Assembly (NCBI GenBank): GCA_029004215.1 | Contig: JAQULH010000003.1 | Coordinates: 1 to 56,973, forward strand | DNA length: 56,973 nucleotides | Reading direction: 5' to 3' | Source: Patescibacteria group bacterium | GTDB taxonomy: Bacteria > Patescibacteriota > Patescibacteriia > 2-12-FULL-60-25 | Shown: in pieces, positions 883 through 56,971 of the stretch | Numbering within the stretch: the first letter of the stretch is position 1 | Layout: every line of letters starts with the position of its first letter | Notes under the pieces: generated by a model | Database searches by the model: none | What the model was told of the DNA's origin: nothing | The model's input: the letters and a program-made list of their open reading frames with translations, nothing else | Position numbers and translations under genes: made by a program

Positions 883-2063
883 ACGAAGTCAAAGTTTTAG
901 TTTTAGATGGTCATCTGCCAAGCGCCCTGGCCTGCGTTCGCTCTTTAAGTAAGCACAATATTAAAGTCATTTGCGGAGCTGAGCGCAAAAGCGCCTTGGC
1001 CTTGCATTCAAAGTTTGCCAGCGAGGCTTGGACCTATCCCTCGCCGCTTGAAGACGCCGAAGCTTATGTTCAGGCAATCATCAAAAAACTATCAACCAAG
1101 GGTGATCGTCCGGTCATCTATTGCTTGAGCGACAATACGTTGCTGCCTTTGGCATTGCATCGTGATCAAATTGAAGCGGTTGGTCGTCTGGTTTTGCCAG
1201 AAGAAAAAGATTTTAATATTGCTTTTGATAAGGCTTTGACTTTGAAGTTGGCAGAAAGATTGGGCGTGCCCATACCACTAACTTTTTTTATCGAGAACCA
1301 AGAAGGTTTGGAATCAGCTCTCGGACAGCTCGCATATCCTTGTGTTATCAAGCCTCGTCACAGTTGTCTTTGGGTGGCTGGTAAAGGCATAAGAGGTAAA
1401 ACTGAAATTGCGGATAATCGTGAGCAGGCCAAGGCAATCGTTGAGCGAATTAGAAACAAGACAAGCGTTTGGCCTTTATTGCAAGAAAAATTGACTGGCC
1501 AGGAATATGGAGTTTTTGGTTTATGGCAAAACGGCGAATGGCGAGCCAAGTTCGCGCACCAGCGCCTAAGGTCGCTAGACCCGATGGGCGGAGCCAGTTG
1601 TCTGCGCCAAAGCATTGCTATGTCGCCAGATATGGCCGAATACGCTTCAAAACTAATGTCGGAACTCAAATGGCAAGGACCAGCCATGGTTGAGTTTAAG
1701 TTGGACAAGCCCAACGGCACGCCTAAACTCATGGAAATCAACGGTCGGTTCTGGGGATCACTGGCTTTGACCATCGCTTCAAATGTTGACTTTCCTTATC
1801 TGGCTTATTTACAAGCATGTGGTCAACCGATTGAAACTCCGGGCCAATATAGTGTGCCGGTTACTGCCAGGAGTTTTTTGGCGGATTTTGCAAATTTGTT
1901 AAAGGTGATGAAGTTCGGCACAAAAGTTGGAGTCTCAAGACTGTCGGCTTTACGCTCATTTATCTTTCCCAACCAACCCAACTTAGTTTATGACGTCGAG
2001 TCTTGGAATGATCTAAAACCAGCCTTGTGGCAGGTTATTGATGTTGTGGCCAGAAAATTATGA
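879..2063 (+). CDS. ATP-grasp domain ligase
   Basis: 394 residues. The N-terminal third is a pre-ATP-grasp Rossmann-like domain (starts VLVLDGHLPSALACVRSL). The ATP-grasp domain follows, with the lysine strand PCVIKPRHS (~residues 154-162), EYGVFG in the nucleotide-binding region and the Mg-binding MVEFKLD...LMEINGRFWG near residue 270. Such enzymes join a carboxylate to an amine or thiol with ATP; the substrate is not readable from sequence. It is translationally coupled to its neighbours by ATGA at both ends, between the deacetylase and a PHP phosphoesterase. It may ligate an amino acid or similar group onto a sugar (inference). Confidence 0.85.
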   Translation: MNEVKVLVLDGHLPSALACVRSLSKHNIKVICGAERKSALALHSKFASEAWTYPSPLEDAEAYVQAIIKKLSTKGDRPVIYCLSDNTLLPLALHRDQIEAVGRLVLPEEKDFNIAFDKALTLKLAERLGVPIPLTFFIENQEGLESALGQLAYPCVIKPRHSCLWVAGKGIRGKTEIADNREQAKAIVERIRNKTSVWPLLQEKLTGQEYGVFGLWQNGEWRAKFAHQRLRSLDPMGGASCLRQSIAMSPDMAEYASKLMSELKWQGPAMVEFKLDKPNGTPKLMEINGRFWGSLALTIASNVDFPYLAYLQACGQPIETPGQYSVPVTARSFLADFANLLKVMKFGTKVGVSRLSALRSFIFPNQPNLVYDVESWNDLKPALWQVIDVVARKL

Positions 2064-2860
2064 ACCAAATAAACGGTTATTTGCATTTACATTCCAGCCA
2101 TTCTTATGACGGCAAGTTGTCGTTACCAGAGATCAAAGAGAAGTGCCTAGCTTTGGGCATGAGTTTCGTGGCCATGGCAGAACATATTGATGGTTTGACT
2201 GCAGATGATATCCAATCAGCAGCCAGCGAATGCCGCGTCCTTTCTGATTCCAAATTTGTTTTCATGCCAGGTTTTGAATTGCCTTATAAAGATTGCCACG
2301 TCCTGCTCTTAGGCGCCACTGACGTCAGGTTGGATCTGCCTCCACTTGAGGCAATCAAGCTCGCCAAACAGCAAGGTGCGTTTATTGTCTTAGCGCATCC
2401 TCATCGCAACCATTATCAGATTGGCCAAGATCTTTTAGAGTTGCTTGATGGCATTGAGGTTTGGAACCAGCAATATGATGGTAAACGCTATCCGCGTATT
2501 CAAGCGTTAGAGCTTTTTGAAAAAAGTTCAGCTAAAAAAGCATCGTTACTCGCTATAGCGGGTTTGGATTTTCACCGGGCATCTCATTTTGGCAATCCGC
2601 ACATCAAGCTAGACGTCTCAGAAATTTCTGAAAAAGAAATCATTAATCAACTCAAAACAGGGAATTATCTGATGGTAAGCAAGGCTGTTGGCTTGTCATC
2701 GCGACCCAAGTTGTTTGGCCTGCAGAGGTTAAAAGTGGGTTTCATGAGTCGTCTGTCGTGCGGAGCCATAGCCTTTGGCAAAAGCGTCAATAAATGGTTG
2801 TATGAACATAACCTGGCTATGCCTAAACGCCTAAAAGAGACTATTAGAAAACGACTTTAA
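2060..2860 (+). CDS. PHP-domain metal-dependent phosphoesterase
   Basis: 266 residues. The PHP signature is clear: LHLHSSHSYDG (HxH, ~residues 8-18), AMAEHIDG (~39-46), GFELP, VLAHPHR (~112) and AGLDFHRASH (~170), all metal ligands of the trinuclear site. PHP proteins hydrolyse phosphomonoesters or act on nucleotide/histidinol-phosphate type substrates. About 60 basic residues at the C-terminus lie outside the domain. Start and stop overlap the neighbouring genes. In polysaccharide loci PHP proteins also occur as CpsB-like tyrosine phosphatases, but this one is closer to the generic PHP family; role uncertain. Confidence 0.85.
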   Translation: MNQINGYLHLHSSHSYDGKLSLPEIKEKCLALGMSFVAMAEHIDGLTADDIQSAASECRVLSDSKFVFMPGFELPYKDCHVLLLGATDVRLDLPPLEAIKLAKQQGAFIVLAHPHRNHYQIGQDLLELLDGIEVWNQQYDGKRYPRIQALELFEKSSAKKASLLAIAGLDFHRASHFGNPHIKLDVSEISEKEIINQLKTGNYLMVSKAVGLSSRPKLFGLQRLKVGFMSRLSCGAIAFGKSVNKWLYEHNLAMPKRLKETIRKRL

Positions 2861-51749: not shown

Positions 51750-52496
51750 TTATTTGGATGGGGACTTACTGGCCTTGTCAGCCTCGCAAGCCCAGGTGTT
51801 CCACTTGGCGTTGATCTTCTTGGTGTGCTGGCCTTCGGGGCAGACGCACGGCGGCTTCTCGGGGTTCTTCTGGTCCGCTTCCTCGGTCAGGCACTCGATG
51901 CCAGCGCCCACGCATTGCTGCTGGATGGCCTGCTCGGTGCGATGACCCTGGTGCTCGATGACCATGAAGTAGTCACGCTGGGCCACGCCGTTGCGGCACT
52001 CGTAGTGCACGTCCTTGGCAAAGATGGCTTGCTGCACCGGCACGGGCGCTGACTTGGCAGTCGGCGGAACCGGGGGCACAGCGCTGGCCGAAGGCAGGGG
52101 CAGGGGAGGCAGCGAAGCGACCGGAGCCAGCGCGTTGGTCACGACCGGCGGCGGCAATGCGACGTTGCTGGACTCCTGGCCAACCGGCTCCTCGAAGACC
52201 GGGAAGTTGGGGGGGCAGTAGCTGCCGGGGTCTGATCCAACGAGCACTGCGTTGTACCAGATGTACTGGCGGTTGTTCTGGGTGCAGCTGCACTTGACTG
52301 CCAGGAGCTGCGACCCGCCGTTCATCAGGTTTTCGCGTGCGGGCTGCTGGCCCTGGCACGCGGCCGGGAGCGACGGGGCAGCCTGCGATGACCCGGCAAG
52401 AGTGGTCTCGACTCCGGGGGTGCGCTGCCTGTCGACGCAGCTGGCTGCGATCAGTGAAACGAACACGAGAACGAACGATGCGACGAAATTTCTCAC
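51750..52496 (-). CDS. high-GC Pro/Cys-rich probable lipoprotein
   Basis: 248 residues from GTG 52496, preceded by AAGGAGG. N-terminal hydrophobic stretch with a likely lipobox (LIAASC, Cys20); the -3 residue Ala is weak. Two Cys-rich parts (CSCTQNNRQYIWYN and CRNG...CVGAGIECL...CVCPEGQH...WNTWACEAD) flank a Pro-rich linker (~115-160). The Cys patterns look like a secreted disulfide fold; no family recognised. Third codon positions are mostly G or C, unlike its neighbours. It has its own promoter and terminator. Confidence 0.8.
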   Translation of the reverse strand: MRNFVASFVLVFVSLIAASCVDRQRTPGVETTLAGSSQAAPSLPAACQGQQPARENLMNGGSQLLAVKCSCTQNNRQYIWYNAVLVGSDPGSYCPPNFPVFEEPVGQESSNVALPPPVVTNALAPVASLPPLPLPSASAVPPVPPTAKSAPVPVQQAIFAKDVHYECRNGVAQRDYFMVIEHQGHRTEQAIQQQCVGAGIECLTEEADQKNPEKPPCVCPEGQHTKKINAKWNTWACEADKASKSPSK

Positions 52497-55160: not shown

Positions 55161-55781
55161 ATGTCACAAAAAAATAAATTGATTATCCTGTTCGTTGCTT
55201 TGGGGGCGGTGATAGTCTTGGCCGCGGCCGGAGGTTTGTTGACCTATGAAGTTTATTACAAGGTCAATGACTCAGCCGTCGTAAGAAGCGTCGCCGGGCT
55301 ATTCGGCTTGCCTGCAGCTAAGGTCGGTTCACGTCAGGTCAGTTACGCCAGGTTCCTGATGACACGGGATGCTGTCAAACGTTTTGTTAACAGCGAGGCA
55401 GGCAAAGAGGTTGGCGCCACCATGCCGCCGGAAAATGCTCTCAACAAAAATATCCTCGAGAGACTCGTGCGACAGGAAATGATTCAAGAGATCGCTGACC
55501 AGAAAAAGGTCACTGTCTCAGACGAGGATGTTAAAGCTATCTTTGCAGACGTAGTCAAGGCAGCCGCTTCGTCCACTACGCCGGACATATCCCAATACCT
55601 GTGGAACAATTATGGTTGGAACGAGGACAACTTCCGCAAGGAAGTCTTAAAACCGGCTTTGCTCGAACAAAAGCTGGCTAATGAAATGGCTAAAGAGAAA
55701 CAAGGGGATCAAAATGCCTTGGAAACAGAACTGGCTGCCAGGGCCTTGAAACCGGACGTTATCTATTACCTGAAATTCTAA
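55161..55781 (+). CDS. SurA N-terminal domain-like membrane-anchored chaperone
   Basis: 206 residues. One N-terminal membrane helix (~7-30) with the rest outside. KVGSRQVSYARFLMTRDAVKRF (~55), RLVRQEMIQEIADQKKVTVSDEDVKAIF (~106) and YGWNEDNFRKEVLKPALLEQKL (~150) match the SurA/PrsA N-terminal chaperone fold. No parvulin isomerase domain follows, so it is chaperone-only. Last gene of its operon; a hairpin terminator follows. Confidence 0.83.
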   Translation: MSQKNKLIILFVALGAVIVLAAAGGLLTYEVYYKVNDSAVVRSVAGLFGLPAAKVGSRQVSYARFLMTRDAVKRFVNSEAGKEVGATMPPENALNKNILERLVRQEMIQEIADQKKVTVSDEDVKAIFADVVKAAASSTTPDISQYLWNNYGWNEDNFRKEVLKPALLEQKLANEMAKEKQGDQNALETELAARALKPDVIYYLKF

Positions 55782-55803: not shown

Positions 55804-55833
55804 AGAAGAACCCACCTCGCAACGGGTTCTTCT
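55804..55833. terminator. hairpin terminator between convergent genes
   Basis: Perfect 10-bp stem AGAAGAACCC/GGGTTCTTCT with a 10-base loop. On the + strand a T-rich TTCTTTCG follows. A second hairpin GCCGC/GCGGC (55854-55858 and 55867-55871) lies nearer the - strand gene. Together they should stop transcription from both sides. Confidence 0.75.
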
Positions 55834-55883
55834 TTCGTTGTGGGTGGGCTTTTGCCGCGAGATTTTGCGGCGAGGTAGGGGGT

Positions 55884-56864
55884 TCAGCGGCCGAGAAGCA
55901 AGGAAAGGAATGCTTCGAACGCTTCGTCCTCGTGTCGTTCGCGAAGGACGCTCGACGGATTGAAGGCCGACTCGGTCTCGCTTCCCGGGGGCAAGTGCAT
56001 CGTAGCCAGGTCATCCAGTAGCTTGGTCTGCTCTTCGTTGGACAGGAAGCCGGCTTGCGTGAGCTCATCGAGCACGAGCTTGGCGTCGAATTCATTCTCG
56101 AGCCGCGTTGCCGAAGAGATGTGCCCATCGAGTCGCAGATGGTAGTGTTGGCCACAGGCGGCGAAGTGGGGAGGGTTGGCTCGCTGACGGAAGCCGAAGG
56201 CCAGGTCGATCTCCCTTTCCAGAAGCTCGCCGGTCAGGTGCTGGCAGAGCTTGTCGGCGCGCTCTGCTCCGGAAGAGGCGCTGAGATTCATCACTCGAGG
56301 CTTGAGTCCGTTGGCTTCCTCCTGGAGGAGAAGGCCATACTCGACGGCTTGCTTGAGCAGGTCGGTGGCTCCCTGCTGAGAGAAGACGACGCTCTTGAAG
56401 CCCGCAACAATCCCCTTGGGGAAGAGCTGGGCGTGAATCGGCAACTTCGCACAGGATTCCAGTTTGCAGCATCGCCCGTGCTGGCACGCCTCGAAGCGTG
56501 CGGGACCGGAGCCTTCCTCGGGCGGCAGCGCTCCGCAGAACTGCCCGATCAGGCGCTCGTACTCCGACGTCTTGGTGTATGTCTTCGAGATCTTGTCGTA
56601 GCGGTTCTCGGCAACGGGCAGGCCGGTGGCAATGATCTGGCGTTCGAGCTCGGCTGCTTGGTCGCTGTTCAAGTAGCCGTCTTCGATGGAGAGCTTGATG
56701 TGTTCCCGGCAAGCATCCACCGAGAACATGTCTCCGCTCAAAGCCCTCTTGCCGTCTTGCAACAGCTTGAAGCACCCGTGGATCGGCCAGCCGGCGCGGT
56801 CGGGGTGGGTGATGAGTCCGAAGGTCACGTTCGTGGGAGACTTCTCGTTGGTCTTCTCTGTCAT
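55884..56864 (-). CDS. high-GC protein with three internal repeats, unknown function
   Basis: 326 residues from ATG 56864, preceded by GAGG. Three repeats of about 80-100 residues: each starts with a His/Cys-Gly block (IHGCFKL ~28, CQHGRCCKLE ~127, CGQHYHLRLDG ~237) and ends in a helix-turn-helix-like unit (DGYLNSDQAAELERQI ~62, EYGLLLQEEANGLKPRV ~175, AGFLSNEEQTKLLDDL ~271). Several Cys/His suggest metal binding. No signal peptide. Strong G+C preference at third codon positions, unlike its neighbours. A + strand frame opposite it is a shadow. Confidence 0.78.
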   Translation of the reverse strand: MTEKTNEKSPTNVTFGLITHPDRAGWPIHGCFKLLQDGKRALSGDMFSVDACREHIKLSIEDGYLNSDQAAELERQIIATGLPVAENRYDKISKTYTKTSEYERLIGQFCGALPPEEGSGPARFEACQHGRCCKLESCAKLPIHAQLFPKGIVAGFKSVVFSQQGATDLLKQAVEYGLLLQEEANGLKPRVMNLSASSGAERADKLCQHLTGELLEREIDLAFGFRQRANPPHFAACGQHYHLRLDGHISSATRLENEFDAKLVLDELTQAGFLSNEEQTKLLDDLATMHLPPGSETESAFNPSSVLRERHEDEAFEAFLSLLLGR

Positions 56865-56883
56865 CTGAACCTCTGTTTTGTTA

Positions 56884-56943
56884 GGGCCACACCCCTCTGA
56901 ATGGCACTAACAGTTGAAAGTTGCACGAGGGGTAACGTGGCCC
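56884..56943 (-). other. structured 5' leader hairpin
   Basis: Arms GGGCCAC (56884-56890) with GTGGCCC (56937-56943) and ACCCCTC (56891-56897) with GAGGGGT (56927-56933), i.e. two stacked 7-bp stems with a 3-base bulge around a 29-base loop. It begins right behind the -10 box of the gene at 56864 and so makes up most of its leader RNA, 20 bases ahead of the start codon. It may stabilise the mRNA or sense something. Confidence 0.7.
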
Positions 56944-56971
56944 AAGATACTCTAAATACCAGGTTTGTCAA
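56944..56971 (-). promoter_or_regulatory. consensus promoter of the three-repeat protein gene
   Basis: On the - strand TTGACA (56971-56966), 16-base spacer, TATCTT (56949-56944). A perfect -35, in contrast to the weak -35 elements of the leaderless genes. Confidence 0.75.

Follow-up and report, generated by a model that had tools for sequence, protein, structure and literature searches.

The window considered here is the whole 56,973-nt stretch of contig JAQULH010000003.1, from a Patescibacteria group bacterium, and the gene of interest lies on its minus strand, close to the far end (Table 1). The gene encodes a protein of three units and 326 aa. Downstream of it lies the 10-bp inverted repeat AGAAGAACCC/GGGTTCTTCT, which is conserved in G031 (genomes are given here by handle, with G000 denoting that of the window). 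The window stops where the contig has a run of N, and beyond this is a tRNA-Thr(CGT) gene on the same strand as the three-unit gene. An earlier, sequence-only reading of the locus had placed the coding sequence, the -35 box (from 56971) and the 3′ hairpin (from 55804) correctly. Neither a signal peptide nor a membrane segment was noticed when the protein was inspected by eye, and it was judged soluble in the same manner, from its sequence rather than with a predictor. Two long ORFs in other frames overlap the gene, one of 281 aa at 56055-56900 (+) and one of 227 aa at 56092-56775 (-), and both are probably products of GC-rich codon bias, not genes.

Table 1. Features of the three-unit locus, with the lipoprotein gene used for comparison; positions are those of the window.
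Feature	Position	Strand	Details and basis
GC-rich lipoprotein gene (P0002)	51750-52496	-	Present in 7/9 genus genomes
SurA-N-like gene, one border of the slot	55161..55781	+	Pfam SurA_N_3, 6.7e-11; present in 9/9 genus members
Likely bidirectional terminator, inverted repeat AGAAGAACCC/GGGTTCTTCT	55804..55833	.	Between convergent SurA-like gene and three-unit gene
Three-unit protein CDS	55884..56864	-	326 aa; ATG start, GAGG Shine-Dalgarno-like site upstream
Repeat unit 3, C-x2-H-x-H block (residues 237, 240, 242)	55956..56180	-	Unit profile E 9.8e-17
Repeat unit 2, C-x5-C-x4-C-x5-H block (residues 127, 133, 138, 144)	56202..56510	-	Unit profile E 9.1e-29; alignments
Repeat unit 1, WPIHG...FS...G.L...LP	56568..56843	-	Unit profile E 1.4e-29; self-alignment
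Leader hairpin: outer stem GGGCCAC/GTGGCCC, inner stem CCCCTC/GAGGGG, 29-nt loop	56884..56943	-	Fold z -2.87; pair table
41-nt core, CCCCTC-29 nt-GAGGGG	56892..56932	-	Identical in G031; motif retained in G033
Predicted sigma-70-type promoter, TTGACA-16-TATCTT	56944..56971	-	10/12 consensus

The 326-aa protein consists of three divergent copies of a small, seemingly undescribed domain, as the sequence-only reading had claimed. None of 200 shuffles of the window protein reached the score of 52 of its best non-overlapping self-alignment, although the margin is narrow (maximum 51). The signal is stronger in the homologues of G031, G033 and G023 (60, 64 and 62, where shuffles reached at most 48-55) and marginal in the two copies of G010. 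A unit profile finds three units each in the proteins of G000, G031, G033, G023 and G010a, while a local copy of the profile finds one strong and two weak units in G010b. The homologues are of comparable length and architecture, and the rough consensus of a unit is F..C......C..YP.HG.F........vFS...A...L...v..G.l...Ea..L......LP. The Cys/His blocks that had been noted are real in units 2 and 3, and that of unit 3 is conserved in G031 and G033.

The three-unit family is present in five of the 41 genomes sampled from the window's taxonomic family, namely G000, G031, G033, G023 and G010, the last with two paralogues of low mutual identity. The homologue of G031 is 71% identical to the window protein and that of G033 about a third identical, and a three-member profile run against the genome contigs matched only these two (SKS1.bin59 and STC_25). 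Full-length profiles searched against 381 genomes of the class and 380 of the phylum gave no convincing member and a single borderline one, in G465. The unit profile, in turn, detected a 126-aa protein of one unit in G237, and a profile extended with the G237 and G465 sequences detected relatives in G690 (one unit, E 3.9e-6) and G585 (two units, E 1.7e-5). When rescored with a profile trained on the three-unit family alone, which avoids circularity, the proteins of G585, G237 and G690 reached 21.0, 20.7 and 19.5 bits, respectively. The controls stayed lower, 9000 shuffles yielding at most 9.2 bits and 417 real proteins of the window's genome at most 5.8; G465, at 12.8 bits, was weaker than the three relatives. 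Since these one- and two-unit relatives stand well above the controls, the domain represents a wider Patescibacteria superfamily. Judged by these profiles, the three-unit form is restricted to one taxonomic family among the genomes sampled. What had been an orphan gene has become a definable domain, with one-, two- and three-unit architectures in several Patescibacteria lineages. Other borderline matches were set aside as chance: that in G118 lies in an antisense frame, and those in G008, G419, G673, G599 and G728 cover only the helical half, in secreted-looking helical proteins.

The relatives also bear on the Cys/His residues, for a C-x(1-5)-C...H-G pattern is confined to single-unit relatives and to some units of the larger proteins. 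It takes the form C-x-C followed by H-G in G237, C-x2-C-x2-H-G in G690, and C-x2-C followed by H-G in the first unit of G585, and in the G010 proteins both unit 1 and unit 2 lack the Cys site. The pattern probably marks a metal site, lost by decay from some copies, and the units that retain it may bind metal.

Structure prediction, which the sequence-only reading had proposed as a check, gave an AlphaFold2 model (six sequences, pLDDT 81.6, pTM 0.75) in which each unit starts with two or three strands and continues with two helices, linker helices being present as well; unit 2 modelled alone gave a pLDDT of 79.2. The predicted fold of the unit is therefore beta-beta-(beta)-alpha-alpha, a short beta-sheet and then an alpha-hairpin. 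Foldseek returned no match at E <= 0.001, either for the whole protein against PDB and BFVD or for unit 2 against PDB, an absence that does not prove a new fold. VIA-align comparisons of single units gave Z scores of at most 6.0 to eL28 and 5.2 to PSRP-3, both for unit 1 only, and of about 3-4 to WNK CCT-like domains; as Z values under 8 are common by chance, all of these fall in the range of unrelated folds, and the unit is left without a fold assignment. The eL28 and PSRP-3 likeness has no counterpart in the Pfam or PDB sequence searches, and the weak structural likeness to WNK CCT-like domains comes without sequence similarity. Finally, the C-terminal domain of CtsR (PF17727) resembles the alpha-hairpin in one of the G023 homologue's units (E 0.0012, 19.4 bits; structure Z 2.6), but the score is below the Pfam cut-off of 23.8, and the likeness concerns one of six members and only the helical half.

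The statement that the protein belongs to no recognised family has held up across the collections searched. The family members stay below the cut-off of every curated Pfam and NCBIfam family, PHROGs gave nothing consistent across members, PADLOC gave no family for six members at E <= 1, and PDB sequences gave no accepted match; the viral, phage and plasmid collections searched held no relatives. An orphan family as such is unsurprising in Patescibacteria, where lineage-restricted unknown genes are the norm: the AGNOSTOS catalogue lists 54,343 lineage-specific unknown gene clusters for this group (PMC9132574). The family resembles those clusters in being taxonomically restricted, of unknown function and from Patescibacteria, a likeness by description, and differs from them in the units, distant superfamily, chromosomal slot and leader described here. 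The new parts are the definition of the domain and the leader.

The consensus promoter proposed for the gene was likewise found as described, and a TTGACA box with a plausible -10 lies upstream of every homologue examined. By consensus and conservation, this is the predicted dedicated promoter of the three-unit gene. Directly behind it, a 14-bp stacked hairpin had been described; a structured leader is indeed there, but a small internal loop divides it into an outer stem of 7 bp and an inner stem of 6 bp. The fold has an MFE of -30.0 kcal/mol, and 0 of 200 shuffles were equally stable, while the z score is weak in G031 (-1.8) and G033 (-1.2) and the G010a leader is without excess stability. 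In standard promoter geometry, transcription would start about 6-7 nt past the -10, within the 5′ outer arm. The 6 nt that follow the -10, the greater part of this arm, would thus lie upstream of +1, which makes the inner stem and 29-nt loop the safer RNA element. The outer stem may be a DNA feature, with only the inner stem and loop safely assigned to RNA.

Conservation of the leader is best seen between G000 and G031, which are identical at 99 of 109 promoter and leader positions, with 50 consecutive identical positions spanning the entire 41-nt core; identity over the gene itself is 80.5%, and over its third codon positions 76%. One intragenic stretch of 60 nt is also identical at 58 of 60 positions, so the leader is distinctive mainly through its unbroken run. 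The G033 leader keeps both stem arms of six bases, an overall length of 41 nt and the loop octamer AACTTTCA, and in this comparison an eight-base loop match at a near-equal offset arose in 31 of 20,000 shuffles. Outer-stem pairing is 7/7, 7/7 and 5/7 across the three leaders, with two-sided changes at two positions (pairs were counted by script on a hand alignment, MAFFT having placed the G033 gap wrongly). These comparisons draw on three related sequences of one genus. In the 41 genomes, the pattern CCCCTCN{3,8}AACTTTCAN{8,22}GAGGGG has three matches, all before the three-unit gene (G000, G031 and G033); the expectation that the leader would also precede other high-GC genes was not borne out, the search having returned only three-unit genes of the window's genus. 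The leader is thus conserved and specific to the three-unit gene within the genus. Elsewhere, the G010 paralogues share a 27-nt leader motif, GGATACGCACGCGCTGAWTTYGAGAGG, that occurs nowhere else in the 41 genomes, their leaders differing in sequence from that of the genus, and G023 has no comparable leader hairpin.

Autogenously regulated genes with 5′ leader hairpins include, for example, those of the ribosomal protein operon leaders. The three-unit gene resembles them as a single gene behind a conserved, gene-specific hairpin, and differs in that its leader has no Rfam family and its protein, a putative binder of the leader, is not ribosomal. A literature search on Patescibacteria found no relevant report of such a leader or domain.

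The gene occupies a recurrent position in its genus. In all nine genus genomes, tRNA-Thr(CGT) comes after the SurA-like gene, and the slot between them holds a three-unit family gene in G000, G031 and G033 and is empty in four sister species (gaps of 56, 97, 184 and 107 bp in G034, G028, G032 and G029, respectively). In G030 it holds an unrelated 350-aa low-GC orphan without a Pfam match (L019:1153-2205 (+)), and in G035 apparently noncoding DNA. Given this patchy, slot-like presence, the three-unit gene is accessory. Neither att repeats nor a duplicated tRNA 3′ end was found at the slot, where the longest shared run of 7-8 nt is below that of shuffles; with a single gene and no flanking repeat, the slot does not have the makeup of an integrase-borne tRNA island. 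A SurA-like protein tree has too little support to tell gain from loss. The members in G010 and G023 lie at other loci, not beside a tRNA gene, and the two-unit relative of G585 (L104:1210-1758 (-)) lies directly downstream of tmRNA (1900-2303 (-)) on the same strand, a position that parallels the tRNA-Thr position in the window's genus. Immediately next to one family member in G010 is the gene of a protein (L024:5769-7757 (-)) that combines a ResIII/DEAD helicase part with a C-terminal sigma-70 region 4 (Pfam 1.6e-14).

Taken together, this is a new orphan protein family, not a member of a class of mobile cargo genes, and the gene is best read as encoding a lineage-restricted accessory binding protein, whose expression its own leader probably controls. 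In fuller form, we tentatively favor a stand-alone accessory gene of Patescibacteria, which are ultra-small bacteria, encoding a binding protein built of units, controlled by its leader and gained or lost as a single unit. Each unit would descend from a metal-binding unit that is present once or twice in distant relatives, and the units would together form a binding surface for a partner, either protein or nucleic acid. The hairpin near +1, together with its conserved loop, would be a cis-element controlling expression, most simply through feedback from the gene's own product, and gain or loss would proceed through recombination between the flanking genes, not a dedicated integrase. We infer this function and autoregulation, and binding of metal, ligand or RNA by the protein is putative; the conserved leader makes the idea of such regulation directly testable. 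It is rather doubtful that all the following hold at once: an undescribed metal-site domain in one to three copies, optional slots beside tRNA or tmRNA genes, and feedback on the gene's own mRNA via a new leader element.

It is conceivable that the leader is a general expression device that the three-unit protein does not bind, acting as a 5′ mRNA stabilizer or as a translation switch whose CCCCUC would pair either with GAGGGG or with the Shine-Dalgarno GAGG. The hairpin does lie near the predicted start of transcription, the GAGG ahead of the ATG offers a possible pairing partner for CCUC, and several homologue leaders carry pyrimidine-rich, CTTTCA-like tracts. We regard this alternative as somewhat doubtful, however, for the 29 conserved loop nucleotides would be superfluous in a simple stabilizer and no other gene in the 41 genomes uses the motif.

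Selection on the protein invites another explanation. The three-unit protein evolves fast, with a dN/dS of 0.44 between G000 and G031 against 0.02, 0.02 and 0.07 for three neighbors. Such a value would suit a gene of defense, counter-defense or antagonism, shaped by an arms race in a tRNA/tmRNA hotspot, where the leader only sets expression; the patchy slot beside tRNA-Thr, the second orphan at that site in G030 and the relative next to tmRNA in G585 would suit it as well. Yet dN/dS is below 1, PADLOC gave no match, defense neighbors were not seen, the phage, plasmid and viral collections searched held no relatives, and the loci in G010 and G023 lack an adjacent tRNA gene. A role in conflict is therefore unlikely.

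Recent import under relaxed constraint, with the gene drifting to loss, is quite improbable. The gene has a GC3 of 0.78, where 418 ORFs from 20 stretches of 20 kb of the window's genome (L061-L080) average 0.54 (sd 0.08), and this atypical composition, in line with the high GC noted earlier, would fit an import. So would the high dN/dS and a dS of 0.40, below the 0.59-1.12 of the neighbors, which may reflect either codon bias or a later exchange. Across the family, the gene is GC-richer than its surroundings in G000 and G010, equals its host in G023 and is slightly above it in G033. Against relaxed constraint stand the frame, which is intact and equally long in G000 and G031, the conserved promoter and leader, a dN/dS below 1 and the related gene in the same slot of G033.

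The sequence-only reading had united the three-unit gene with the lipoprotein gene of the window in one undescribed mobile or cargo class with shared signals, which is highly improbable: both are GC3-rich (0.78 and 0.82) and on the minus strand, each with its own promoter and terminator, but the lipoprotein gene occurs in nearly all of the genus and is stably GC-rich, the proteins and leaders are unrelated, and the terminators, whose shared 3′ design had been taken as a class mark, are ordinary hairpins. The lipoprotein is a stable genus gene, with matches in none of the 32 remaining family genomes and without the leader motif. Its homologues have third positions mostly of 0.76-0.83 GC and are thus equally GC-rich, so GC-richness is no mark of recent mobility. 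Other GC3-rich genes of the window's genome have no common leader, and their promoter scores reach 10 or more in 21% of cases against 10% (only 19 genes), which is no clear enrichment. In these mosaic genomes, then, GC-richness and a common promoter style do not define a class of mobile genes. About 5% of the ORFs have a GC3 above 0.70, and these range over metabolic, lipoprotein and orphan genes; examples, named by eye from their sequences, include a TROVE/Ro60-like protein (L065:3328-5043), orotate/OMP-pathway-like proteins (L080) and large lipoproteins (L070).
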